DNA of 35,125 nucleotides from contig JANYHS010000188.1 in the NCBI GenBank assembly GCA_025358945.1, positions 1 through 35,125 on the forward strand. The letters run 5' to 3'. Position 1 is the stretch's first letter. Each line of letters begins with the position of its first letter. This DNA comes from Acidobacteriota bacterium. GTDB lineage: Bacteria; Acidobacteriota; Vicinamibacteria; Vicinamibacterales; CAVVIG01. Below the pieces are notes generated by a model, which ran no database searches, was not told the origin of the DNA, and was given only the letters and a program-made list of their open reading frames with translations. Positions 4,080 through 23,155 of the stretch are shown here, piece after piece. The position numbers and the translations under genes are program-made.

Positions 4080-5828
4080 TCAGCACGAGACGCATTTGTG
4101 GTTGTTCCTGGCGCCGAGTCCTTCGAGCAGTTTGATGGTGTCGGGATACGGTTGCGTGCGCTGCACCGGGCCGTTGGCCAGATCCACGGTGGTCTGCCCG
4201 GCACGATTCACCGCTGTCGCGTCCGCGCCCTTGGACACCAGGTATTCGATCATCGCGTTGTCGCCGCGCGCCGCGGCGTGGTGGAGCGCCGTATTGCCTT
4301 CGTGATCCCGCGCGTTCACGTCGACGTGCAGATCATCGACGAAGTATTTCACCGCGTTGAGCATTCCGGTCGGTGCGAAGCGGTGCGCGTTGGCGGCGAA
4401 GCCTTCGCCGTAGCCGGCGCCCGCAGCCGCGAGCAGCGGTGGAATGCCGGGACCGCCGGTGGGCAACGGCCGTCCCGAGAGGTCGACGGTCGGCGCCTCG
4501 CGATCGGTCTCGGTGCCGCGAGGGCGTGAGAACGGCTTGATCGTGGCAATCGATGGATCCGCGCCGTGTTGCAACAGCAGTTTCATCGCCGCGATGTCGC
4601 TCGCATACGCCGCGCGCCAGAACGCCGTCGCGCCGCTATCGTCCACGCGGAGGAGATCGAAGTTGTACTGCGTGAACCATGTCCTGCGGGACAGGCGGGC
4701 GTTCGGATCGGCGCCCTTGTCGAGCAGCAGCGTCATCAGGTCCAGGTACGACGTTTCCTGTTGCAGCTGCGCGCGGGGCTGCGGGTAGAACATGCGCGGG
4801 GCCCATTCGATATTCAGGACGGCGAAGAGCGGAGTCACGCCCGCGGCATTGGCCAGGTTCGGATTGGCGCCGTGCGCGATGAGGTATGTCGCGATGTCGA
4901 ATTGTCCGTTGACGGTGGCGATGAGCAGCGGGCTGACGCCGTCGCCCGGGCTGAGCGCGTTGACGCTGGCGCCGTGCTCGACCAGCGCCTGGACGGAGCG
5001 CGCGCTGCCCTGCCGGGCGGCGAAGTGCAGCGCCGTCAGGCCGCCCTGCGTGCCGACGAGTTCGTTGAACGCATACGCGCGCGTGACACCGCCGACACCG
5101 GGGCTTGCGGGCGCCGCCGGAGCCGTGGCTGGCCGTGGCGCGCCGCCCGCGCTCCTGGCGTTCTGCGCGTCGCGGATCGTGTTCTGCAGCGTTTCTTCCG
5201 GCGCCGTCACGCCGTCGAGATTCACGATCCTCGAGGCGCGTGCCGGATCGGCGCCGTGCTTGAGCAGTTCGGTGACGGCGTCGGCGCGATCGAGGGCCGC
5301 CGCAAACATCAGCGCCGTCTCACCGTTGGCCGACTCGGCAGCGTTCGCATCCGCCGTGTGTTCGAGGAGCAGGCGGACGGCTGCGGCATTGCCCGACGCG
5401 GACGCCAGCATCAGCGCCGTTGCGCCGGTTGCAGTGGCCGCGCCCGCGTTCGCGCCGCCGGCGATCAGGCGGCCGAGTGCCGCGGCGTGACCGGCCTGCG
5501 CGGCCAGGTGCAGTGCGGTGTATCCGCCAAGCCGCGTCGTCGCCCGCACGTTGGCGCCGGCGTAGAGGAGAACCGCGGTCAGGTCGGCGTCGCCGTTCAT
5601 CGCCGCCCAGTGCAGCGCGGTCATGCCGTCGCCCTGCGCGGCATTGACGTCCTTACCGTCCTTGACCAGCGCGCGCACGGCCGCAGGATCTTTGCGCATC
5701 GCGGCAGCGGCCACGGGCGCGGCGTCCGGCGCCGCTGCGAGGGCGGTCGCGAGAGCGGTCGCGATGATGAGCACCCCGATCCAGACGCTCGCCGGGAAGG
5801 CTCGCGCTCGACGTCGTGTGTTGGTCAT
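4080..5828 (-). CDS. Secreted ankyrin-repeat protein with C-terminal HKCVSC tail (copy 1)
   Basis: This 582-residue protein has an Arg-rich N-terminus followed by a hydrophobic segment (about 13-33), a signal peptide or anchor. Ankyrin repeats run in two blocks separated by an Ala/Pro-rich linker (about 225-245). Repeat signatures such as GMTALHWAA, GYTALHLAAQ, GETALMFAA, GLTALHFAA and GNTALHHAA are plain. The last residues are NNHKCVSC, identical in the paralogue at 21428-23155. The start is fixed by an ATGA overlap with the stop of the upstream DUF1552 frame (5825-5828) and an AGGTGA ribosome-binding site before it, implying translational coupling. Ankyrin repeats bind proteins; secretion and linkage to cytochrome-like and DUF1552 genes suggest a periplasmic scaffold, which is inferred. 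The tail is a CxxC preceded by His, not a CxxCH heme site. Confidence 0.85.
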   Translation of the reverse strand: MTNTRRRARAFPASVWIGVLIIATALATALAAAPDAAPVAAAAMRKDPAAVRALVKDGKDVNAAQGDGMTALHWAAMNGDADLTAVLLYAGANVRATTRLGGYTALHLAAQAGHAAALGRLIAGGANAGAATATGATALMLASASGNAAAVRLLLEHTADANAAESANGETALMFAAALDRADAVTELLKHGADPARASRIVNLDGVTAPEETLQNTIRDAQNARSAGGAPRPATAPAAPASPGVGGVTRAYAFNELVGTQGGLTALHFAARQGSARSVQALVEHGASVNALSPGDGVSPLLIATVNGQFDIATYLIAHGANPNLANAAGVTPLFAVLNIEWAPRMFYPQPRAQLQQETSYLDLMTLLLDKGADPNARLSRRTWFTQYNFDLLRVDDSGATAFWRAAYASDIAAMKLLLQHGADPSIATIKPFSRPRGTETDREAPTVDLSGRPLPTGGPGIPPLLAAAGAGYGEGFAANAHRFAPTGMLNAVKYFVDDLHVDVNARDHEGNTALHHAAARGDNAMIEYLVSKGADATAVNRAGQTTVDLANGPVQRTQPYPDTIKLLEGLGARNNHKCVSC

Positions 5829-7212
5829 GAGGTCACCTGATTCAGATCGAGCGGGCCGGTGCTGTCGCCGAACGACGTGATCGGGAGGCCCACACTCTGC
5901 AGGCCGGTGAGCATCGCGTTCGCCATCGGCGTGCCCTCGGCCGCCTTGATGTGGACGTTCCCGTGCAGCCGTCCGCCGGCGTGGCCGAGGAAGAACAGTG
6001 GGCAGCGTTTGTGGTTGTGCACGTTGGGATTGCCCATCGGCGACCCAAGACGACGAGCGAGTTGTCGAGCACCGTGCCGCCGCCGGCGTCCGGAATCTGC
6101 TTCAGCTTGTCGAGCAGGTACGGCAGCAGGCTGACGTGGTACCGGTTGATCTTGGCGAAGTCGGTGATCCGATCCTCGCGCTCGTTGTGATGCGATGCGA
6201 TGTGGAAGCCGGTGGTCGCACCGGCCTCGGTGAAGACTCGGTTCGACACGTCGCGGCTGAGTTTCAGCGCAAACACGCGCGTGATGTCGGCGGCAAACGC
6301 CATCGCCTGCAGGTCGAACATCAGCCGCACGTGATCTGCGTAGGAGTCGGGGACGCCCATCGGCGCGGTCGGCAGCTCGCGCTGCTCGCCGCTGGCGTTG
6401 TGCGACTCGACCTTCTGAATGCGGCGTTCGATCTCGCGCACATTGTCCATGTAGTCGTCGAGCCGCGCGCGATCGCCCGCGCCGACGCCGGCTTTCAGTT
6501 CGTCCGCCGACGACATCACCCAGTCGAGCAGGCTCTTGTCCTTGCGGCGACGGCGCGCGCGCGCTTCCGGCGTGGCGCCGACCCCGAACAGCTGGTCGAA
6601 CACCGCGCGCGGGTCGCGGATCATCGGCAGCGGTTCGGTCGGCGATCCCCAGCTGATCGAGTCCGTGTACGCGCACGAGTAGCCGTAGAAGCAGCCGCCC
6701 GACTGATCGATGCTCTCGATGCACAGCTGCATCGAGGGGATCGGCGTGTCCTGGCCGGCGGCCTTCGCGTAGATCTGATCGAGTGACGTGCCGGCGTGGA
6801 CGTCGGAGCCCTGCGTCTGGTGCGGGTGCGACTGCGTCAGGAAGACCGCCGCCGATCGGAAGTGATCGCCGCCGATTTCCGGCGCGGTGAATGCTTCGGC
6901 ATTCCGGCAGTCGGTGTTGGAGACGATGGTCAGATAGTCGCGGTAGGGCTCGAGCGGCGCGAGCGAAGTCGGCGACAGGTCGAACGCCGAGCCGGCGTCA
7001 GCTGGCGACCACATGTTCTTCTTCGCGCCGAACGCGGTGGCGCCGGCAACGCCGTGCACCATCTCGATCGCGATCAGGCGCATCTTGCGCGCGCTGGCGA
7101 CGTCGAGGGCGGTGGCGGCCGGGGTCATCGCGTCGAGAAACGGCAGGGCGATTGACACACCCAGGCCTTTCAGGACCGCGCGTCGCGGAATGTGCTTCCG
7201 TGTCAGAAACAT
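5825..7212 (-). CDS. DUF1552 protein, interrupted by a one-base frameshift (copy 1)
   Basis: The start ATG at 7212 has an AGGAG ribosome-binding site overlapping the upstream stop. The N-terminus has PRRAVLKG (residues 9-16) and a hydrophobic stretch, a probable twin-arginine (Tat) signal. The body closely matches the intact paralogue at 19955-21379, for example IEMVHG, ISWGSP, IREIERRIQ and KINRYH. Near 6044, within a run of three C on the plus strand, one base appears to be missing: the frame reads LVVLGRRW instead of the expected LVVLG-SPMG, and the C-terminal part (GSPMG...NHKR...LDLNQVTS) continues in the neighbouring frame to a stop at 5825. That stop overlaps the ankyrin start as ATGA, so the second frame is genuine. 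It could be a pseudogene, programmed slippage or a sequencing error. DUF1552 has no established biochemical role. Confidence 0.8.
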
Positions 7213-7222
7213 CCGATCACTC

Positions 7223-9700
7223 CTATCGCGCGCTGGCGGTGGTGTGCGCCGCTTCGGTGGCGCGCCGCTGGAACGCGTCGCTGTTGATGATGCCGAGGAC
7301 GAACGACGACAGCCGCAGGTCGGCCTTCGAGGCCTGACGGACAATCGCGCGCACCGTCGGCATGTCGTAGTACTCGACGCGGCGCCCGAGCGCATACGTC
7401 ATCAGGTTTTCCGTGAAGGTCTGCAGGAACACGTCCTGATGTTTCAGCAGCCCTGCGCGCAGTCCGGCCGGCCCGTCGATCCTGGTGCCGTCGTACATCA
7501 CGCCCGCGGCGTCCACCGGGACGCCGTTGTCCTTGATCCGCCATTTGCCGGTGACGTCGAAGTTGTCCAGCGCGAGACCGAGCGGATCGATCACGCGGTG
7601 GCACGACACGCACGCCGGGTTCTTGCGGTGCTCCTCCATGCGCTCGCGTGTCGACAGGATTTTGCCGCCGAGTGTGCCGTTGGTCGCCTCGAGTGCCGGC
7701 ACGTTGGCGGGCGGCGGCGGTGGCGGCGATCCGAGCAGAACCTCCATGATCCACTTGCCGCGCATGACGGGCGATGTGCGATCCGCGACCGACGTCAGCA
7801 CCAGGACGCTGCCGTGTCCGAGCAGCCCGCGGCGCGTCTCGGGGAGCGCCACGCGCCGAAACGCCGGGCCGCTGACGTTCGGGATGCCGTAGTGCCGCGC
7901 AATGCGCTCGTTCGCGTAGGTGTAGTCCGCCGTCAGCAGATCGAGGACGCTGCGGTTCTCGCGCACGATGCTGTCGAAGAACAGTTCGGTCTCGCGCACG
8001 AACGCTTCGCCGAGCGTGTGGTCGTAGTAGGGATACGACACCGCGTCGGGCAGCATCGCATCGACGTCGTTGAGGCGCAGCCACTGCGCGGCAAATCGCG
8101 TGGACAGCGACTCGGCGCGCGGATCCCCGAGCATGCGCGCGACTTGTTTCTCGAGGACGCCGGGCGCCGTGAGGCGACCCTGCTGCGCGATTTTGGCCAG
8201 CTCCGCGTCGGGACCGGTGGCCCAGAGGAAGAACGACAGGCGCGATGCGAGCGCCACCTCGCTGAGCCGCACGGTCTCTGACGGTCGCAGCGCGAAGCCT
8301 TCAGGCGAGCGGCCGGCGCTCGGCTGAAGCCTTCGCGCTACGGATGGGGCGTCCGGCCTTCGCGCGACGGAGGCGGAGGCGGAGGCAGACTCGACGCGGA
8401 ACACGAACTGCGGGCTCGCGAGAATCGCCTCGAGCGCTGCGGCGATGCCGCCTTCAAACTCGCGCTCCTTGCGGCCCTCCGCGTAGAAGCGCATCAGCGA
8501 GTCGATGTCGCGCCGGCTCGCGGGACGCCGGAACGCCTGCGCCGCCAGCTGCGTCACGATCTTCGTCGCGCACGCGTCTTCGTCGTTCGCCATCGTCGGG
8601 CGGCAGGCGAAGATCCGGTCGCGGCTGGGCGTCGCCGACACGCCTGTCACGTGCTGCGGTCCGACGATGCTCAGATCCTTGAGGTGGGGGAGCGTGGTGA
8701 TGCCGTAGGCGACGCCGATCTGCGTGTCGGCCAGGGTGTGATCGATTGGCGCCAGCAGGTCGTTGACCGGCCCTTCGAAGTGCTGGATGAACGCGGCGGC
8801 GATGTGCTGCGGACCTGCGGCGACGTGAATCGGCGGCGTTTTCAGCGTGAGGCTCGTCGTGACCTCGGCCATGTTCGGATCGATATCGAGGACGGCCTTC
8901 CGCTCGCCGTTGATCGAGACGTCGATCTGTTCGCCGGACGCGGGTCCGCCGAACAGGAAACCGTCGGCGTTGCCATGCAGATCGATGCGGAACACGTAGT
9001 CGCCGTCGGCGGGGAAGGTGTGCGTGACGGCGATGCCGCCGCGCGTGCCGAGCGGCGCGCCGTCGACGCGGCGCAGCTGCGACGCGGTCTTCGGCACACG
9101 GTAATGCGCTTCCGTGGACTCCGCGTCGGGATCGCCGATGGCAAGCGCGGTCACTTTGCTCGCCGCGCGCAGGTAGCCTTCCATCAGCGCCGGCGACAGG
9201 GCCTGCGAGTCGGCAACGTTGTCGAAACCCTGGCTGATGGAGTCTGGCGGCAGCAAGCTGTTGACGTCGATGTCGAGCGCGAGCAGATCCGCGATCGCGC
9301 GCGCGTACTCCACGCGATTGAGGCGCTGGAACGATCGGCGGCCCGGGTTCGGCGCCAGCGCGGCGGCTGTGTCGATGCGCGTTTCGAGCGATTCGGCCAG
9401 TGTCAGCAACGCGGCGTCGTCTGGGCGCCGCGCGCCGGGCGGCGGCATCATGCCCGCGCGCAGCTTGCGGATCATTTTTTCGGTGACATCGGCGTGCTGC
9501 GGCGCGGCGCCGATCTCGAACGATGCGAACGACACGCCGCCCGCTTTGCCGCGTTCACTGTGACAGCCGGCGCAGTACTGCCGCACGAGCAGCGTCTGCG
9601 GATCCTGAGAGACGGTTGCCAATGATGAGGGCGCTTGCCCGTCGGCGAGTGCAGAGGCGCCGAGCATCCCAATCCCGAACACAATGAGGCCGCGCTTCAT
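7223..9700 (-). CDS. DUF1592/DUF1588-type secreted cytochrome-like protein (copy 1)
   Basis: This protein of about 825 residues starts at the ATG at 9700, where a signal peptide begins (MKRGLIVFGIGMLGASALA); longer upstream readings lack protein-like sequence. An N-terminal CAGCH (Cys43, Cys46, His47) is a c-type heme-binding motif. Then follow the DUF1587-like region (RLNRVEYARAIADLL), DUF1595-like and DUF1592-like regions (SRLSFFLWATGPDAEL), the DUF1588-like region with a second heme motif (ACVSCHRVIDPLGLAL) and a DUF1585-like end (LMTYALGRRVEYYD). This architecture is common in Planctomycetota and Acidobacteriota; electron transfer in the periplasm is presumed but unproven. A palindromic element adds about 35 residues near the middle, absent from the paralogue at 17471. 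The DUF1552 gene follows after 10 bases. No Shine-Dalgarno sequence is seen, and a TATACT box sits close to the start. Confidence 0.87.
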   Translation of the reverse strand: MKRGLIVFGIGMLGASALADGQAPSSLATVSQDPQTLLVRQYCAGCHSERGKAGGVSFASFEIGAAPQHADVTEKMIRKLRAGMMPPPGARRPDDAALLTLAESLETRIDTAAALAPNPGRRSFQRLNRVEYARAIADLLALDIDVNSLLPPDSISQGFDNVADSQALSPALMEGYLRAASKVTALAIGDPDAESTEAHYRVPKTASQLRRVDGAPLGTRGGIAVTHTFPADGDYVFRIDLHGNADGFLFGGPASGEQIDVSINGERKAVLDIDPNMAEVTTSLTLKTPPIHVAAGPQHIAAAFIQHFEGPVNDLLAPIDHTLADTQIGVAYGITTLPHLKDLSIVGPQHVTGVSATPSRDRIFACRPTMANDEDACATKIVTQLAAQAFRRPASRRDIDSLMRFYAEGRKEREFEGGIAAALEAILASPQFVFRVESASASASVARRPDAPSVARRLQPSAGRSPEGFALRPSETVRLSEVALASRLSFFLWATGPDAELAKIAQQGRLTAPGVLEKQVARMLGDPRAESLSTRFAAQWLRLNDVDAMLPDAVSYPYYDHTLGEAFVRETELFFDSIVRENRSVLDLLTADYTYANERIARHYGIPNVSGPAFRRVALPETRRGLLGHGSVLVLTSVADRTSPVMRGKWIMEVLLGSPPPPPPANVPALEATNGTLGGKILSTRERMEEHRKNPACVSCHRVIDPLGLALDNFDVTGKWRIKDNGVPVDAAGVMYDGTRIDGPAGLRAGLLKHQDVFLQTFTENLMTYALGRRVEYYDMPTVRAIVRQASKADLRLSSFVLGIINSDAFQRRATEAAHTTASAR
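8289..8388. repeat. Palindromic repeat element inserted in frame in the DUF1592 gene
   Basis: Two 16-base arms (8289-8304 and 8324-8339) are reverse complements with one mismatch. Inside them a further 5-base pair (8306-8310 with 8318-8322) extends the hairpin, leaving a 7-base loop. The right arm region recurs as a direct repeat: GCCTTCGCGCTACGG at 8329-8343 and GCCTTCGCGCGACGG at 8356-8370 (14 of 15 identical). Short GGAGGC units follow. The paralogous gene has no such segment. It looks like a REP-like mobile palindrome kept in frame, encoding repeated SVARR peptides. Confidence 0.75.
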
Positions 9701-9710
9701 ACGTGAGCCG

Positions 9711-9724
9711 AGTATACGAGCGAT
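9711..9724 (-). promoter_or_regulatory. Promoter-like motif upstream of module copy 1
   Basis: Read on the minus strand the site is ATCGCTCGTATACT, with TATACT as a good -10 box ending 10 bases before the DUF1592 start at 9700. A matching 14-mer (12 of 14 identical) lies upstream of the paralogous module at 17396-17409. No strong -35 box is visible. If transcription starts about six bases after the box, the mRNA would be nearly leaderless, consistent with the missing ribosome-binding site. Confidence 0.4.
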
Positions 9725-9842
9725 AAGAAACGCCACATCCACTAATTTGGTTCGGAGACGATCTTTCACATCCTTGATGGGGCAAATCATCATCGAGAGT
9801 GTTCTAGAATGCACCACGTTCTTATAGCGAAAGCGAGGCAGC

Positions 9843-12722
9843 ATGAGGTTGGTTCTGCGTGTGGTGGTGTGTGCGCTCTGCATCTTGACGGCAGGGATCG
9901 CGCACGCTCAGGTTCAAACCGGTTCGATTGCCGGCACGATCACGGATGCAAGTAGCGGCGTACTGCCGGGCGTGACCGCGACGCTCACGGGCGAGCGCCT
10001 CATTGGCGGCGCCGCCACGCAGGTTACCGATGCCACAGGCGCGTATCGCTTCGATCGTCTGCCCCCGGGCGCGTACGTCGTGAAATTCGAACTGCAGGGC
10101 TTCAAGAGCATCACGCGCGACGATATCCGTATCAGCGCGTCGTTTACCGCCACGGTGAACGCGAAGCTCGAAGTCGGCAGCATGACCGAGTCGATCACGG
10201 TCACCGGCGAATCGCCGACGGTCGACACCAAGTCGAACCTGCAGCAGACGGTGATGAACCAGGACATTCTCGAAGGCGTGCCTTCGGGCCGCGACCCCTG
10301 GTCGATCGCCAAGATCATCCCCGGCGTGCAGGTGTCGACGTACGACGTCGGCGGCACACAGTCGATTCAGCAGAGTTCGCTCTCCTCGCACGGGTCCAGC
10401 ACCAACGACGTCAGCTACAACATAGACGGCGCCACGGTGAACTGGCCGGGCGGCGGCGGCGGCGCGACGATGCTGTACTACGACCAGGGCATGTTCGAAG
10501 AGGTCAACTACATGACGTCGGCGATTCCCGCCGAAGTGATGGTGGGCGGCGTCTCGATCAACATGGTGACCAAGGACGCGGGCAACAAGTGGCGTGGTGA
10601 TACCCGCTACAACTTCTCGGCCGGCTGTCTCACCTCCTCGGCGCCGCAGCCGGGCTGCCTCGAGAGCGACAACGTCCAGAAGGGCAAGGACGACGGCACG
10701 CTGCCATCGACGTTCCTCGGCAACCCGACCAAGACGACCTACGACTTCAACATCGCCGGTGGCGGCGCGATCGTCAAGGACCGCCTCTGGGTGAACGGCT
10801 CGATACGCCGCTGGATCGTCGACAAGCTCGTCGCCGCCAAGAACCCGGACGGCACGCAGGCGATCGACGACAACATCCTGAAGAACTACTCGGGCAAGGC
10901 TGTCTTCTCGGCCTCGTCCAATCAGAAGCTGGCGGCGTCGTACAACTGGAACAACAAGATCCGCGGTCATCGCCGTGACGGCACGTTCCAGGCGCCGGAC
11001 ATCGCCTCGCTGGTCCAGACCAATCCCGCGTTCTCGTCGCAGGTGAAGTACACCGGCATCAAGAACAAGACGGTATTCGAGTCGTCGTTCAGCGTGATGA
11101 ACGGCCAGACGAACTACTCGTACCAGCCGGACACACTCGCGACCGCCGTTCGCATGGAAGACGCGACGCTGAACATTTCCAATTTCGCGGCGCAGCGTCA
11201 TGAGGAACAGCCGAACTCGCGCTATCAGTTCGACAACACCGTGTCGCAGAGCCTGACCGGCATGGGCGGCGATCACCTCCTGAAGGCAGGCGTGCAGTTC
11301 GGCCGTCTGTCGTACGAGAGCGACTACGACGTCCAGAACAACATCTACCTGCTCTACAGCAACGGCGTTCCCCAGTCGGTTCGCGAGTGGAACACGCCGA
11401 CGGTGTCGAAGAACGTCGACAAGATGATCGGCCTCTTCGTTCAGGACAACTGGTCGGTCGGCCGTCACCTGACGCTGAACCTTGGCCTGCGCTTCGACCA
11501 CAACCAGGGCATCCTGCCGGAGCAGTCCAATCCGCAGCGCACCTACGTCGGACCGCAGAGCATTGCGGAGTCGACGCCGATCAACCAGAACCTCTTCGTG
11601 TGGCGCAGTGGTCTGTCGTACGACCCGATCGGCGACGGACAGACGGCGATCAAGGCGAGCTACAGCCGCTACGGTCTGCAGGTGGGTATCGATCGCGTGA
11701 CCAACGTCAACCCGTTCACGGCCGCCAGCCAGACATGCCCGTGGTCGGATCCGAACAAGGACGGCATCGCGCAGACGTCCGAGTACGGCACCGGCTGCAG
11801 CGGCTTCCCCGGCCTCACCGTGAAGTACGCGGGCGACAACGGACCGCGCTGGCCGTATTCGGATGAAGTCACCGCCGGCGTCGAGCACCAGGTGATGAAG
11901 GACATGCGCGTCGGCGCGATGTTCTACTACCGCACGAACCGCGATCAGCTCGGTCTCCGCAACACCGCAGTGCCGTCGACCGCGTACACGCCGTTCACGG
12001 TCACCGTGCCGAACGGCCCCGGTGGCACGGTGGCCAGCCCGAAGCCGATGTCGGTGACGGTCTACAACCTGCAGACGGCGTTCAACGGCCTGCAGAGCAA
12101 CGTGATCGACAACCAGCCGTATCTCGACACGGTCTACAAGGGCGTCGAGTTCACGGCGTCCAAGCGCTTTTCGAAGCGCTGGCAGATGGTCACGGGCCTG
12201 ACGATCGGCAAGAACACCGGCGGCCTCAACGGCACCGGCGGTCAATCGCTCAACGCGGGTAACGACCTGAACGATCCGAACTTCCTGACGTATTCCAACG
12301 GCATCGTCGGGAACGACTCGGACCTGGCGTTCCGCCTCTCGGGAAGCTATCGGCTGCCGTACGACATCAGCCTGGCGGCAACCCTGGTGTCGAATCGCGG
12401 CTATCCCTACGTGTCGAACTACTCGGTGTCGCGCGCGTTGGCGACGGCGGCCGGTGTGGCGCTGACGCGTTCCAACCAGGTGGTCCTGCTCGGACAGCGC
12501 GGCGACGAGCGGCTGCGGGCGGTGAACCTGGTTGACCTTCGCATCTCGCGCGCGTTCCGCTTCGATCAGAAGCGGAAGATCGAACCGCAGATTGACATCT
12601 TCAATCTGACGAACTCGAACGTGGCCGACTCGACCAACGCCGCAGTCGGCGGGACCTATCTGGTGCCGCAGACGATCGTCGCGCCGCGCATCATGCGCGT
12701 GGGCTTCTCGATCAACTTCTAG
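9843..12722 (+). CDS. TonB-dependent receptor, Oar-like with carboxypeptidase-regulatory domain (1)
   Basis: This 959-residue outer-membrane protein has a signal peptide (about residues 1-22, ending AHAQ). A carboxypeptidase-regulatory-like beta-sandwich follows (about 27-110: GSIAGTITDASSG, GAYRFDRLPPGAYVVKFE), then a plug-like region (ITVTGESPTVDTKS, VSYNIDGATVNWPGG, MVTKDAG) and a long beta-barrel ending in MRVGFSINF, whose terminal Phe suits BAM-mediated insertion. Receptors of this class import or bind large ligands such as oligosaccharides, peptides or metal complexes using TonB energy; the ligand here is unknown. The gene is divergent from the DUF1592 module, sharing a 142-base intergenic region, so co-regulation is possible. 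A hairpin follows the stop. Confidence 0.9.
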   Translation: MRLVLRVVVCALCILTAGIAHAQVQTGSIAGTITDASSGVLPGVTATLTGERLIGGAATQVTDATGAYRFDRLPPGAYVVKFELQGFKSITRDDIRISASFTATVNAKLEVGSMTESITVTGESPTVDTKSNLQQTVMNQDILEGVPSGRDPWSIAKIIPGVQVSTYDVGGTQSIQQSSLSSHGSSTNDVSYNIDGATVNWPGGGGGATMLYYDQGMFEEVNYMTSAIPAEVMVGGVSINMVTKDAGNKWRGDTRYNFSAGCLTSSAPQPGCLESDNVQKGKDDGTLPSTFLGNPTKTTYDFNIAGGGAIVKDRLWVNGSIRRWIVDKLVAAKNPDGTQAIDDNILKNYSGKAVFSASSNQKLAASYNWNNKIRGHRRDGTFQAPDIASLVQTNPAFSSQVKYTGIKNKTVFESSFSVMNGQTNYSYQPDTLATAVRMEDATLNISNFAAQRHEEQPNSRYQFDNTVSQSLTGMGGDHLLKAGVQFGRLSYESDYDVQNNIYLLYSNGVPQSVREWNTPTVSKNVDKMIGLFVQDNWSVGRHLTLNLGLRFDHNQGILPEQSNPQRTYVGPQSIAESTPINQNLFVWRSGLSYDPIGDGQTAIKASYSRYGLQVGIDRVTNVNPFTAASQTCPWSDPNKDGIAQTSEYGTGCSGFPGLTVKYAGDNGPRWPYSDEVTAGVEHQVMKDMRVGAMFYYRTNRDQLGLRNTAVPSTAYTPFTVTVPNGPGGTVASPKPMSVTVYNLQTAFNGLQSNVIDNQPYLDTVYKGVEFTASKRFSKRWQMVTGLTIGKNTGGLNGTGGQSLNAGNDLNDPNFLTYSNGIVGNDSDLAFRLSGSYRLPYDISLAATLVSNRGYPYVSNYSVSRALATAAGVALTRSNQVVLLGQRGDERLRAVNLVDLRISRAFRFDQKRKIEPQIDIFNLTNSNVADSTNAAVGGTYLVPQTIVAPRIMRVGFSINF

Positions 12723-17409: not shown

Positions 17410-17470
17410 TCACGCTGGTTAGCGTCTCGAATCAGGGCGTTTCGCGACGTTTATGTATCGGGGATCGTGC

Positions 17471-19945
17471 ATGACAAAGTTCACGGCGGCGAAGACGGCC
17501 ATGCTGGCGGCGATGTGCGTCGCGCTCGGCTTGAGTCTCGCGGCGCAAACGAATCCGGCGCCGAAGAAGACCGCCGCGCGGCAGGCGGGCGCTCCCGCGC
17601 CCAAGCCCGCGCTGGCCGTGGCGCACAAACCCGCGGCCGCGGCTGAACCGCAACCCGAGATCACCAGGCAGTACTGCATCGGCTGCCACAGCGACAAGGG
17701 CAAGGCCGGCGGCCTGTCGCTCGTCGGTTTCGATGCGGCGCACGCCGACCAGAACGCCGACGTCGCGGAAAAAATCATTCACAAGCTGCGTCTCGGCATG
17801 ATGCCGCCGCCCGGCGCGCGGCGCCCGGAAGGCGCCGTGCTGACGCAGTTCGCCACCGGACTGGAAACCACGATCGACGCGGTGGCGACGCTGCGTCCCA
17901 ACCCGGGCCGCCGTGGGTTTCAGCGCCTGAACCGCGCGGAGTACGAGCGGTCCGTGCACGACCTGCTCGATCTCGACGTCGACGTGAACGCGTTCCTGCC
18001 GCCCGACACACTGAGCGCCGGCTACGACAACATCGCCGACGTGCAGACGTTCTCGCCGACGCTGATGGAAGGCTATCTGCGCGCCGCGGGGCGGATTTCC
18101 ACACTGGCCGTTGGCGATCGCAACGCGAGCCCGTCGGAAGCGACGTTCAAGGTGCCGCGCACGCAGTCGCAGATGAAGCACATCGACGGCACGCCGTGGG
18201 GCACGCGCGGCGGCATCGCCGTCACGCACACGTTTCCGGCCGACGGTGATTATTCGTTCCGCATCATGCTGCACGGCACGCCAACGGGTCAGCTGTTTGG
18301 CAGCGTGTCGAGCCGCACCGAGCAGATCGATCTCTCGATCAACGGCGAGCGCGTCGCCTTGCTCGACATCGATCACAAGATCAGCGAGACCGACAAGAAC
18401 GGCCTGAACCTGGTCACGCCGCGTGTACACGTGAAGGCGGGCCCGCAGCGCATTGCCGCGGCGTTCATCCAGAAGTTCGACGGCGTTGTGGACGACCTCG
18501 TCTCGCCGATCGACTACACGCTGGCCGATACGGAATACGGCGACAACGCCGGCATCACGATTCTTCCGCACGTGCGCGACCTCAGCATCACCGGGCCGTA
18601 CCGGGTGACCGGTGTCTCCGACACGCCGAGCCGCCGCAAGGTGTTCGTCTGCCGCCCGACCGCGCAGGCCGACGAGATTCCCTGCGCGCGTCGGATCCTG
18701 TCGACGCTGGCCAGCGAAGCCTACCGCCGGACCGCCCATAGCGAGGACGTCGAATCGCTGATGGAGTTCTACGGCGACGCGCGCAAGGGCCACGACTTCG
18801 AAGCCGGCATCAAGGCGGCGCTGCAGGCGCTGCTCGCCAGCCCGAAATTCGTGTTCCGCTTCGAGACCACGCCGGCGGCGGCGAAACCGGGACAGACCTA
18901 CCGCGTCACCGATCTGGATCTGGCCTCGCGTCTGTCGTTCTTCATCTGGAACACGGCGCCGGATGCTGAACTGGTGAAGATTGCGACCGCGGGCACGCTG
19001 CACACGCCGGTGATGCTCGAGAAGCAGGTCCGCCGCATGCTCGCGGATGCGCGCGCCGAGACGATGTCGACGCGGTTCGCGTCGCAGTGGCTGCGCCTGC
19101 AGGACGTCGAGAAGATTCATCCGGATGCGCTGCTGTTTCCGGGTTTCGACAACGAACTGGCCACCTCGTACAAACGCGAGACCGAGCTCTTCTTCGACAG
19201 CATCGTACGCGAGGATCGGAACGTGCTCGATCTGCTGGACGCGGATTACACGTTTGTCAACGAGCGCATCGCGCGCGTCTATCGGATGCCGAACATCATC
19301 GGCGAAAACTTCCGGCGCGTCAGCCTGCCGGCAGAACGCCGCGGCATCCTCGGGCAGGGCAGCATGCTGATGCAGACGGCGGTCGCCGACCGCACGTCGC
19401 CGGTGCAGCGCGGCAAGTGGATCATGGAAGTGCTGCTCGGGTCGCCACCGCCGGCGCCGCCGCCCAACGTGCCGCCGCTCGAGGACACCAAGGGCGCGAC
19501 CGCGACGGGCAAGTCGCTGTCGACACGCGAGCGCATGGAAGAGCACCGCAAGAACCCGGCATGCACGTCGTGCCACAAGGTGATCGATCCGCTCGGCCTG
19601 GCGCTTGAGAACTTCGACGTGCTCGGCGCGTGGCGCTTCAAGGACAACGGCGTCGATGTCGACTCGAACGGCGTGCTGTATGACGGCGCCAAGATGACGG
19701 GCTTCGCCGACCTGCGCGTTGCGCTGCTCAGCCACTCCGACGCACTGATCCGCAATTTCACCAACAACCTGATGTCGTACGGCATCGGGCGCCGTATCGA
19801 GTACTACGACCAGCCGTCGATTCGCGCGATCGCAAAGAAAGCTGCACAGAACGGCAACCGTTTTTCGTCGTTTGTCCTGGGGATCGTCAACAGTCCGGCA
19901 TTCCAGATGAGCACGGCCGACGCCGTGTCTTCAACCGCTCAATAG
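17471..19945 (+). CDS. DUF1592/DUF1588-type secreted cytochrome-like protein (copy 2)
   Basis: This protein of about 824 residues is the intact paralogue of the gene at 7223-9700. ATG 17471 is chosen because MTKFTAAKTAMLAAM begins a signal peptide and GGGGA lies before it. An Ala/Pro/Lys-rich linker (about 28-62) precedes the first heme motif CIGCH (Cys69, Cys72, His73). Then come DUF1587-like (RLNRAEYERSVHDLL), DUF1595-like, DUF1592-like (SRLSFFIWNTAPDAEL) and DUF1588-like regions with the second heme motif CTSCH (about 698-702) and a DUF1585-like C-terminus (LMSYGIGRRIEYYD). It is probably periplasmic. It starts a plus-strand operon, with the DUF1552 gene 9 bases downstream. Electron-transfer or polymer-related functions are speculated for such proteins, none shown. 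Confidence 0.9.
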   Translation: MTKFTAAKTAMLAAMCVALGLSLAAQTNPAPKKTAARQAGAPAPKPALAVAHKPAAAAEPQPEITRQYCIGCHSDKGKAGGLSLVGFDAAHADQNADVAEKIIHKLRLGMMPPPGARRPEGAVLTQFATGLETTIDAVATLRPNPGRRGFQRLNRAEYERSVHDLLDLDVDVNAFLPPDTLSAGYDNIADVQTFSPTLMEGYLRAAGRISTLAVGDRNASPSEATFKVPRTQSQMKHIDGTPWGTRGGIAVTHTFPADGDYSFRIMLHGTPTGQLFGSVSSRTEQIDLSINGERVALLDIDHKISETDKNGLNLVTPRVHVKAGPQRIAAAFIQKFDGVVDDLVSPIDYTLADTEYGDNAGITILPHVRDLSITGPYRVTGVSDTPSRRKVFVCRPTAQADEIPCARRILSTLASEAYRRTAHSEDVESLMEFYGDARKGHDFEAGIKAALQALLASPKFVFRFETTPAAAKPGQTYRVTDLDLASRLSFFIWNTAPDAELVKIATAGTLHTPVMLEKQVRRMLADARAETMSTRFASQWLRLQDVEKIHPDALLFPGFDNELATSYKRETELFFDSIVREDRNVLDLLDADYTFVNERIARVYRMPNIIGENFRRVSLPAERRGILGQGSMLMQTAVADRTSPVQRGKWIMEVLLGSPPPAPPPNVPPLEDTKGATATGKSLSTRERMEEHRKNPACTSCHKVIDPLGLALENFDVLGAWRFKDNGVDVDSNGVLYDGAKMTGFADLRVALLSHSDALIRNFTNNLMSYGIGRRIEYYDQPSIRAIAKKAAQNGNRFSSFVLGIVNSPAFQMSTADAVSSTAQ

Positions 19946-19954
19946 AGGACGCCA

Positions 19955-21379
19955 ATGTTCATTTCGAAAAAGCACGTCTCCCGCCGCGCGGTCCTGAAAG
20001 GCATGGGCGTCACCATCGCGCTGCCCTTGCTCGACGCCATGGTGCCAGCGCGCACCGTCTTCGCGAACACCGCCGCCGGCGCCGCGGCGTCGAAGCAGCG
20101 GCTGGTGTGCATGGAGATGGTGCACGGCAACGCCGGCAGCACCGCGATCGGTGTCCAGAAGAACCTGTTCGCGCCGGCTCAGGTCGGCCGCGACTTCGAG
20201 TGGAGCCCGACGCTGGAGCCGCTCGCCCCGTTCCGCGACTACGTGACGATTGTCAGCAACACCGACGTTCACAACGCCGAGGCGTTCACGTTGCCGGAAA
20301 TCGGCGGCGACCACTTCCGCTCGAGCGCGGTGTTCCTCACCCAGTCGCACCCGAAGCAGACCGAGGGCAACGACGTCTACGCCGGCACGTCGCTTGATCA
20401 GATTTACGCGCAGCAATTCGGTCAGGACACGCCGATTCCCTCGATGCAGCTGTCGATCGAGAACGTCGATCAGGCCGGCGGCTGCACCTACGGCTATTCG
20501 TGCATCTATACGGACACGATCAGTTGGGCGTCCCCGAAGCAGCCGCTGCCGATGATTCGCGACCCGCGCGTGGTGTTCGACCAGTTGTTCGGCGTCGGCG
20601 CGACCGCTGCCGAGCGCACGGTCAATCTGAAGACCGACCGCAGCATCCTCGACTGGATTTCGAGCCAGGCGACGCAACTGCGCCGCGACCTCGGCGCCAG
20701 CGATCGCCTCCGGCTCAACGAGTATTTCGAAAACATTCGCGAAATCGAACGCCGCATCCAGCGCGTCGAAGCGCGGAACGCCAGCGGCGAACAGCGCGCG
20801 CTGCCCGAGGCGCCGATCGGCGTGCCCGACTCGTTCGAAGAGCACGTGCACATCCTGATGGATCTGATGGCGGTCGCCTTCGCGTCGGACACCACCCGGG
20901 TGTTCTCGTTCAAGATGAGCCGCGATGCGTCCGGACGATCGTATCCCGAGAGCGGCGTCACCACCGGTTTCCACAACGCGTCGCATCACGGCGAGCGCGA
21001 AGACCGGATCATGGAGTTCGCCAAGATCAACCGCTACCACGTCAGCATGCTCCCCTACCTGATGGAGAAGCTGAAGAACACGCCGGAAGGCGACAGCAAC
21101 CTGCTGGAGAACAGCCTGATCATCTACGGCTCGCCGATGGGCGACTCCAACATCCACAACCACAAGCGCGTTCCGCTGGTGCTCGCGGGCCACGCCGGCG
21201 GCAAGCTGACCGGCGGCGTCCACATCAAGGCGCCGGACGGCACGCCGAAGGCGAACGCGATGTTCACCGGCCTGCACGCCCTCGGCCGCACGGATCTCCA
21301 GAGCTTCGGCGACAGCACGGGATTGCTCGATCTGAACACGAACGTCGCGTCCTCGACGGACGCCGCGCCCAAGGCGTAG
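19955..21379 (+). CDS. DUF1552 protein, Tat-exported (copy 2, intact)
   Basis: This 474-residue protein has the twin-arginine motif SRRAVLKG (residues 9-16) and a hydrophobic segment to about residue 35, so it is probably exported folded by Tat. AGAGGA gives a good ribosome-binding site. Family hallmarks include MEMVHGNAG, GGDHFRSSAVFLTQSHP, YAGTSLDQIYA, NIREIERRIQ and the C-terminal GSPMGDSNIHNHKRVP. The His-rich segments could bind metal; the family is of unknown biochemical role but is regularly found beside DUF1592-type genes, as here. It is the intact equivalent of the frameshifted gene at 5825-7212. The ankyrin gene follows after 48 bases, whereas copy 1 has an ATGA overlap. Confidence 0.9.
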   Translation: MFISKKHVSRRAVLKGMGVTIALPLLDAMVPARTVFANTAAGAAASKQRLVCMEMVHGNAGSTAIGVQKNLFAPAQVGRDFEWSPTLEPLAPFRDYVTIVSNTDVHNAEAFTLPEIGGDHFRSSAVFLTQSHPKQTEGNDVYAGTSLDQIYAQQFGQDTPIPSMQLSIENVDQAGGCTYGYSCIYTDTISWASPKQPLPMIRDPRVVFDQLFGVGATAAERTVNLKTDRSILDWISSQATQLRRDLGASDRLRLNEYFENIREIERRIQRVEARNASGEQRALPEAPIGVPDSFEEHVHILMDLMAVAFASDTTRVFSFKMSRDASGRSYPESGVTTGFHNASHHGEREDRIMEFAKINRYHVSMLPYLMEKLKNTPEGDSNLLENSLIIYGSPMGDSNIHNHKRVPLVLAGHAGGKLTGGVHIKAPDGTPKANAMFTGLHALGRTDLQSFGDSTGLLDLNTNVASSTDAAPKA

Positions 21380-21391
21380 GAAGTACACAAG

Positions 21392-21414
21392 GGCTCAGGG
21401 CATAGGCTCAGGGC
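21392..21414. repeat. Short tandem repeat between DUF1552 and ankyrin genes
   Basis: GGCTCAGGGC occurs at 21392-21401 and again at 21405-21414, a 13-base period. It fills the 48-base spacer that separates the two genes here but is absent in copy 1, where the genes overlap. No function is evident. Confidence 0.6.
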
Positions 21415-21427
21415 TTCAGGAGTTGAG

Positions 21428-23155
21428 ATGCGCAAATCGCTGACGACTGGTTTCTCCCTCTGCGCGGTGGCCGCGCTCGCGTTCACGCAGCTGACGCACG
21501 CAGCGCCGGCTGGCGCCGCCGCATTCGTCGAAGCGGCCATGAACGGCAACCGTGAGGTCGTGCGCGCGCTGTTGAAGGACGGCGCCGACGTCAACACCAC
21601 GCAGGCCGACGGCATGACGGCGCTACACTGGGCGGCCCAGAAGGGCGACGTCGAGCTGGCAAAAGTGCTGCTCTACGCCAGCGCGAATCTCAAGGCCACG
21701 ACGCGCATCGGTGGCTACACGCCGCTGCTGATCGCCAGCAAGAACGGCGACGCGTCGATGATCGACACGCTGACCCAGGCCGGAGCCGACTCGAATGCGC
21801 CGACGATGAACGGCACGACGCCGCTGATGCTCGCCGCCGCGGCCGGCAAGCCGGCGGCCGTCACGGCCCTCATCGATCACGGCGCGATCGTCAACGCGAA
21901 GGAATCAGTGAAGGGTGAAACCGCGCTGACGTTTGCCGCGGCGTTCGGCCGCGCCGACGTGATTCGGGTCCTCACCGCCCACGGCGCCGACGTGAAGATG
22001 ACGACCAACGCCGTCGACCTGGCGGACTTCGCGAAGGAAGAGCAGGAACGGTTCGCGGCCGAGCGCGCGCAGCAGGGCGGTGCGGGACGCGGCGGCGCCG
22101 CGCCGGCCGGTGGACGCGGCGGCGCACCTCAGGGTCCGCAGATCGCCGGCGTCAACCGCCAGTACAACTACACCGAACTGGTCGGCTTCTGGGGCGGCCT
22201 CGCGCCGATGCACCTGGCGGCGCGTCAGGGTGAAATCGAATCGGTGAAGGCGTTGATGGATGCCGGTGCTGACGTCAACCAGGTCGGCGCCGGCGATTCG
22301 ATTACGCCGCTGCTCATTGCGACGATGAACGGTCACTTCGATCTGGCAAAGCAGCTGCTCGACAAAGGCGCCAATCCCAACATCGCACAGAACAACGGCG
22401 CCGCGCCGCTCTACGCCGCGTTGAACGTTCAGTGGGCGGCGAAAGCGCTCTACCCGCAGCCGCGTGCCTACGAGCAGCAGCACGCGTCCTACCTCGATCT
22501 GATGCAGGTCCTTCTCGAGAAGGGCGCCGATCCGAATGCGCGCCTCACCAAGAAGGTCTGGTACTCGCAGTACGACTTCGATCAGTCCGGTGTCGACGAA
22601 ACCGGTTCCACACCGTTCTGGCGCGCGGCCTACGCGGCCGACGTGGACGCGATGAAGTTGATGCTGAAGTACGGCGCCGATCCCAACATCACGACGATGC
22701 GGTCGGCGGGACGTGTTCGGGTGGGTGACGTGACGCGTGAGGTGCAGGACGTGTCGCCGATGCCGCCGGTCGCCGTCGGCGGTCCTGGAGTCACCGCGCT
22801 GCTTGCGGCGTCAGGCGTCGGCTACGGTGAAGGCTTCGCAGCCAATCACCACCGGTTCGCGCCGGGCGGCATGCTCGCGGCCGTGAAATACCTGGTCGAA
22901 GATCTCCACGCCGACGTCAACGCGCGCGATCACGAGGGCAATACCGCGATTCACAACGCCGCGGCGCGCGGCGACAACGAGATGATCAAGTATCTCGTCG
23001 CCCACGGCGCCGACCCGAAGTACGTCAACCGCGAAGGCAAGACGACGGTGGACATGGCCAACGGCCCGGTCCAGCGCATCAGCCCGTTCCCCGAGACGAT
23101 CAAGCTGCTCGAGGGCATGGGCGTGAAGAACAATCACAAATGCGTGTCCTGCTAG
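21428..23155 (+). CDS. Secreted ankyrin-repeat protein with C-terminal HKCVSC tail (copy 2)
   Basis: This 575-residue protein has a signal peptide (about 1-25, ending THAAPA). Ankyrin repeats lie on both sides of a Gly/Ala/Arg-rich linker (about 205-240, AGRGGAAPAGGRGG). Repeat signatures include GMTALHWAAQKGD, GGYTPLLIASKNGD, GETALTFAA, GLAPMHLAARQGE and GNTAIHNAAARGDN. The ending NNHKCVSC is the same as in copy 1 at 4080-5828, though other parts differ substantially. The protein probably acts in the periplasm as a binding partner for the two proteins encoded upstream; this is inferred from conserved linkage. The Cys-rich tail may form a disulfide, bind metal with the His, or be modified. 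Confidence 0.88.
   Translation: MRKSLTTGFSLCAVAALAFTQLTHAAPAGAAAFVEAAMNGNREVVRALLKDGADVNTTQADGMTALHWAAQKGDVELAKVLLYASANLKATTRIGGYTPLLIASKNGDASMIDTLTQAGADSNAPTMNGTTPLMLAAAAGKPAAVTALIDHGAIVNAKESVKGETALTFAAAFGRADVIRVLTAHGADVKMTTNAVDLADFAKEEQERFAAERAQQGGAGRGGAAPAGGRGGAPQGPQIAGVNRQYNYTELVGFWGGLAPMHLAARQGEIESVKALMDAGADVNQVGAGDSITPLLIATMNGHFDLAKQLLDKGANPNIAQNNGAAPLYAALNVQWAAKALYPQPRAYEQQHASYLDLMQVLLEKGADPNARLTKKVWYSQYDFDQSGVDETGSTPFWRAAYAADVDAMKLMLKYGADPNITTMRSAGRVRVGDVTREVQDVSPMPPVAVGGPGVTALLAASGVGYGEGFAANHHRFAPGGMLAAVKYLVEDLHADVNARDHEGNTAIHNAAARGDNEMIKYLVAHGADPKYVNREGKTTVDMANGPVQRISPFPETIKLLEGMGVKNNHKCVSC

Follow-up and report, generated by a model that had tools for sequence, protein, structure and literature searches.

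An in-frame palindrome in an acidobacterial DUF1592 gene is very probably a dimer of mobile GTAG-tagged REP sequences

The palindrome found inside a cytochrome-like DUF1592 gene of the window, by which we mean the whole stretch of 35,125 nucleotides analysed here, is very probably a head-to-head dimer of the REPIN type, formed by a mobile family of GTAG-tagged REP sequences that was spread by a RAYT and is tolerated in frame at this site. In support of this reading, copies of the unit lie scattered at more than 90 sites, they are patchily amplified in relatives, and they flank one particular type of RAYT. A first-pass annotation had proposed a REP-like mobile element turned protein-coding, and both the copies found in the genome and their linkage to RAYT genes support that proposal.

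Results

The palindrome and its host gene

The arms of the palindrome (8286-8311 and 8317-8342) are 26 nt each, complementary at 23 of 26 positions (88%) and separated by 5 nt, so that the near-perfect palindrome of the first-pass annotation is larger than the 16-base arms it had been given. Folded as single-stranded DNA it reaches -30.1 kcal/mol (z = -6.5, with 0 of 200 shuffles as good), and when RNA folding energy is compared over 7013 overlapping 61-nt windows of the 35 kb, its own 61 nt come out lowest. It resolves into two inverted REP units with their tags outward, the arrangement that defines a REPIN (Table 1); in unit 1 the tag has decayed to GCAG and the inner stem is swapped GCC/GGC. 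The direct repeat seen beside the palindrome as a match of 14 in 15 extends to 18 of 21 identical positions (8329-8349 versus 8356-8376), and the GGAGGC units that follow were recovered as three exact copies, a run that is probably due to local slippage.

Table 1. Features of the palindromic insert, its host gene and the paralogue
Feature	Position	Strand	Basis or remark
Host gene, 886-aa DUF1587/1588/1592/1585/1595 cytochrome-like protein	7223..9883	-	Open frame across insert; Pfam; homologue L063
Segment replacing about 20 nt of the paralogue	8286..8389	.	Net gain 84 nt = 28 aa
REP unit 1, GCAGCGCGAAGCCTTCAGGCGAGCG	8287..8311	+	3 mismatches to family consensus
Spacer of head-to-head dimer, 5 nt	8312..8316	.	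Arm search
REP unit 2, GTAGCGCGAAGGCTTCAGCCGAGCG	8317..8341	-	0 mismatches to consensus; GTAG tag 8338-8341
Half-unit GTCGCGCGAAGGC, GTAG side of unit 2 (the direct repeat of the first-pass annotation)	8356..8368	-	
GGAGGC x3, exact	8369..8386	.	Encode alternating Ser/Ala
Paralogue without insert, for comparison only	17453..19945	+	Pfam; protein alignment

The host protein carries five PSD/PSCyt (DUF15xx) Pfam domains, and the insert lies between DUF1595 (residues 438-498) and DUF1592 (540-667). Its bounds were taken from the aligned flanks (8186-8285 and 8390-8509 against 18886-18985 and 18746-18865, respectively) together with the protein alignment. As had been claimed, the reading frame is kept and a short loop of the paralogue is replaced, the latter being 28 residues (84 nt) shorter at this position, and the added residues contain SVARR twice. 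The AlphaFold2 model of the host protein (mean pLDDT 76) places residues 502-537 below a pLDDT of 50 between confident helices, which suggests that the added residues probably form a disordered loop at the surface that the protein tolerates. The two paralogues are themselves part of two inverted paralogous gene blocks (4082-9582 and 17667-23153 of the window) with stretches that are 70-83% identical.

The interval that holds the loop measures 74 residues in the window gene. Of 75 DUF1592 homologues taken from other genomes, 73 have 41-53 residues there, and the REP segment occurs in none of the 75. The two exceptions in length, L063 with 62 residues and L082 with 85, both differ in sequence from the window insert. 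No clean empty site was found at base resolution: the nearest homologue of the host gene, L063 (about 80-82% identical), has a different loop that is itself enlarged, and the target site, the exact length of the insertion and any duplication are therefore not fixed by this comparison. In L082, from a Lake Baikal acidobacterium, the corresponding loop contains a different sequence of 39 bp that is tripled in frame (TGAPGAAAALGWK x3).

A dispersed family of short hairpins

A genome-wide search for the arm, which the first-pass annotation had put forward as a check, was made in the genome to which the window belongs (G000; 3.9 Mb, 372 contigs, 96.8% complete). The nearest named homologues for this genome are all acidobacterial. 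With at most two mismatches the 17-nt arm GAAGCCTTCGCGCTACG gave 137 matches versus 4 for the reversed control, mostly outside genes, as anticipated; the absence of any other copy and the presence of the segment in distant orthologues had been named as grounds for rejection, and the opposite was observed on both counts. The copies were examined as loci at 94 distinct sites. Read on the opposite strand as CGTAGCGCGAAGGCTTCAGCCGAGCG, the unit is conserved at 90-100% per position over the 25 nt from GTAG onward, bar one loop base, and conservation ends abruptly on both sides: over 111 copies the tag reads G 98, T 90, A 92 and G 100 per cent, and the flanks are unconserved. GTAG is followed by CGC-GAA-GGC-TTCA-GCC-GA-GCG, that is, two 3-bp stems with an internal loop, and many stem changes affect both bases of a pair: among 41 distinct units, five carry C-G in place of G-C at pair 12-19 and four carry G-C in place of C-G at pair 5-25. 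A lone unit folds into a weak hairpin that is no better than its own shuffles.

Most sites hold a single unit, and some hold two facing units with the tags outside. Half-units that lie on the GTAG side, in the same orientation and lacking the other half, accompany 17 of the 103 units counted in the own-genome loci L001-L062, L175 and L207-L252, versus 2 or 3 for every one of the three remaining arrangements; the direct repeat of the window is an instance of this family trait, for which tandem slippage starting at the tag would be the simplest conjecture.

RAYT genes and distribution among relatives

The 35-kb window contains no RAYT gene, and the linkage to RAYTs is seen elsewhere in the genome; it bears out the second check of the first-pass annotation, in which a nearby RAYT gene was to strengthen the case. 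The fragment C298 is an internally deleted RAYT with one unit upstream and two inverted units downstream, all of exactly the window family. Its best match is an intact RAYT in a relative (G015 C106; 49%), which lies amid 20 unit matches, the best being GTAGCGCGAGGCTTTCAGCCGAGCG with 3 mismatches; a further RAYT fragment (G010 C448; 51% to C298) has one unit. Of 41 RAYT loci inspected, some of them overlapping, only these three have the unit within 6 mismatches, and since no other locus does, RAYT type and REP type go together. An intact cognate RAYT was not found in the 96.8% complete assembly of G000; the presence of such a gene is a usual and not a defining feature, and its loss is described in the text of PMC3733652 for other REP genomes too.

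Three other RAYT genes of G000 were considered as drivers of the family and rejected. Against the cut-off of the NCBIfam model REP_Tyr_transpos, C84 scores above, C223 just above and C184 below; C84 goes with a related unit of its own that recurs every 32 nt, C184 is accompanied by 11-nt repeats, and C223 has a single poor unit only. The C84 gene (L060, 560-1500) is an intact RAYT with arrays of the related unit GTGGCGCAAGGCTTCAGCCTTGCG on both flanks, including stem variants such as CGCACGACTGAAGTCGTGCG, and these arrays form a second REP family with its own RAYT. The C184 gene (L061, 2052-2113) and L174 of the same-genus relative G001 (C164) are RAYT-like genes of another type, with 11-nt end repeats such as CTGACCCCAAT, whose complement contains GGGGTCAG and fits the GGGGWSAS motif reported for RAYTs flanked by terminal inverted repeats.

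Among 59 relatives, arm matches number 206 in G010, 74 in G018, 22 in G015 and 8 in G001; the remaining relatives have 0 to 8 versus 0 to 8 for the control. The family has thus expanded in few lineages (3 of 59 relatives) and not in the nearest one, G001. Of 42 units in G010, 54% have T and 42% have G as the second tag base, so both GTAG and GGAG occur in this genome.

In-frame copies in other genes

Sites were placed with a home-made, self-trained three-periodic Markov gene caller. Within a gene and in one frame lie 21 of 91 classifiable sites, whereas about 88% of the sequence is coding, and genes are therefore strongly avoided. About 15 in-frame hosts are convincing by length, Pfam or orthologues; the gene-caller positives L016, L030 and L243 were discarded as half-unit or short-frame artefacts, and L004 and L244 are doubtful. 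Pfam confirms a PfkB-family kinase, a radical-SAM protein, IspDF (ispDF), arginyl-tRNA synthetase (argS), the DNA polymerase III alpha subunit, an E1 dehydrogenase and the DUF1592 gene of the window as hosts. By sequence reading alone we would add an acyl-CoA synthetase, a 3-hydroxyacyl-CoA dehydrogenase, a methyltransferase, a metallo-beta-lactamase-fold protein, an M20 peptidase, and prolyl oligopeptidase-like and M14-like peptidases. The encoded peptide is RSAKASAER or a close variant in ten hosts and VARRLQPS in four.

Orthologues in G001, G003 and G007 are 8 to 10 residues shorter where a single unit is present (kinase, E1) and 18 residues shorter for two double units. A clean gain relative to every relative is absent for L032, L040 and L211, in which the loop is variable in all relatives. 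Nucleotide alignment with orthologues (67-83% identical), in which a target-site duplication and the exact insertion length were sought, gives a gap of about 27-30 nt per unit with no defensible boundary. The methyltransferase copy is common to G000 and G001 with mostly synonymous differences, and judging from these sequences it probably predates their split. Of 16 hosts, 14 have the unit oriented with its GTAG end towards the 5' side of the coding strand (p = 0.004), and stop codons do not account for this bias, as either orientation leaves two of three frames open. In the DNA polymerase III alpha subunit the loop that has units in G000 has another repeat-like sequence, SHQPSAISHQPS, in G001 (L253, C5); these are independent insertions at one permissive loop.

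Discussion

The family has the features of a GTAG-type REP: a 25-nt unit (the range being 20-40 nt) with a stem-loop and a 5' GTAG tag, high dispersed copy number, mainly noncoding sites, and a RAYT flanked by the same units, as seen in the C298 remnant and, with a near-identical unit, in G015 C106. As described in the text of Di Nocera et al. 2013 (PMC3733652; 24 families), GTAG-tagged REPs likewise combine the tag with a short stem-loop that has complementary stem variants, occur as singles and head-to-head dimers, are mostly intergenic, flank RAYTs and lie in some cases in frame within genes. According to the same text, in-frame intragenic copies are known from several species and are most numerous in Opitutus terrae; dimers encode 20-30 aa, and hosts include error-prone DnaE2 polymerases and tRNA synthetases; a DNA polymerase and a tRNA synthetase recur as hosts here. 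REPINs (Bertels and Rainey 2011, PMC3116915) share with the window copy the two inverted units with tags outside, whereas most sites of G000 hold single units. The TnpA-REP systems of E. coli and Stenotrophomonas (PMC8266576) share GTAG and the stem-loop, interrupted as in E. coli, but the putative cognate enzyme of G000 is decayed. The in-frame REPs of tnpA-REP subclass 2.4 (PMC6006769) are found in tnpA-REP genes, whereas ordinary and housekeeping genes are the hosts here. The repeats of class 3 TnpA-Y1, for example in Solibacter usitatus (PMC6006769), are also acidobacterial high-copy hairpins beside a Y1 transposase, but they have a CnGA foot and atypical structures instead of GTAG.

By analogy with enzymes from E. 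coli, Stenotrophomonas and Marinomonas, the RAYT, an HUH single-strand endonuclease, would bind single-stranded DNA at tag and hairpin, cleave close by and move units to new places; in other species the TnpA-REP recognises the single-stranded tag and hairpin, cuts at CT and transfers the strand (PMC8266576). Most surviving units would be intergenic and some would have landed inside genes, where they may be tolerated if the net gain is a multiple of three and the site is a loop, and would be translated if the genes are expressed. The copy of the window is probably such a tolerated case, with 28 residues added to a predicted disordered loop; we infer that it arrived by RAYT-catalysed insertion and that the host protein is expressed. 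Since the assembly shows the matching RAYT in decayed form, the family may have lost its mobility in G000.

One may ask whether the segment is simply a local inverted and direct duplication of native gene sequence, with no dispersed family behind it, given that the loop also has slippage-like GGAGGC units and a half-unit direct repeat and that the L082 loop holds a 39-bp tandem triplication. This explanation is barely credible and is refuted by the copies in the genome: more than 100 of them, dispersed among unrelated genes and spacers, yield a consensus that unit 2 matches letter for letter. We also consider it unlikely, though worth keeping in mind, that the repeats are retained because they serve a function themselves, for example as RNA hairpins or protein-binding sites near gene ends, the host-gene copy being selected as a DNA or RNA structure. 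Most copies do adjoin genes, the 12-bp outer stem forms strongly in RNA, and REPs of other organisms have been credited with a role as RNA elements (PMC3733652); but the family is numerous in only 4 of 60 genomes of the order, and the position in the window is not common to a homologue that is about 80% identical. Use after arrival is in any case compatible with a mobile origin.

The roughly 15 in-frame hosts with one encoded peptide also recall the Rickettsia palindromic elements, which the text of PMC3733652 describes as in-frame mobile palindromes in many proteins, of the CGTC type or longer and with no dedicated transposase. That the family is such an analogue, specialised in gene entry and independent of a RAYT, seems very improbable: few of the sites are intragenic (21 of 91, against about 88% coding), the tag is GTAG and not CGTC, and units flank RAYT genes, a linkage that disfavours the analogy. 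Within the preferred reading of RAYT-spread REPs, it is quite doubtful that the family is biased towards harmless gene entry, so that RSAKASAER was repeatedly added to core enzymes by the RAYT system and some copies, such as the methyltransferase copy shared with G001, are now selected. Behind this idea stand a 26-nt unit that is frame-neutral with one base gained and can be read through in four of six frames, and the prevalence of one orientation among the copies in genes (14 of 16).

REPs lying in frame inside genes are known from Opitutus, Rickettsia and others; what looks new here is the family, apparently the first of this kind on record for Acidobacteriota. According to the text of PMC3733652, GTAG REPs occur in Proteobacteria, Cyanobacteria, Chloroflexi and PVC, and the sole entries for Acidobacteria are RAYT-like genes bordered by long terminal inverted repeats; we found no other report of GTAG REPs in Acidobacteriota in the open-licence literature, which is weak as evidence of absence. 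Going by the descriptions of the 24 GTAG families, the family is apparently unrecorded, though it may still coincide with one of the units listed there. Our analysis adds to Acidobacteriota a GTAG REP family that seems not to have been recorded before, the RAYT lineage that matches it, and about 15 natural in-frame insertions, several of them in housekeeping proteins. Together with relatives that have or lack the family, these insertions lend themselves to studying how frequently, and at which places, a mobile hairpin can turn into protein.
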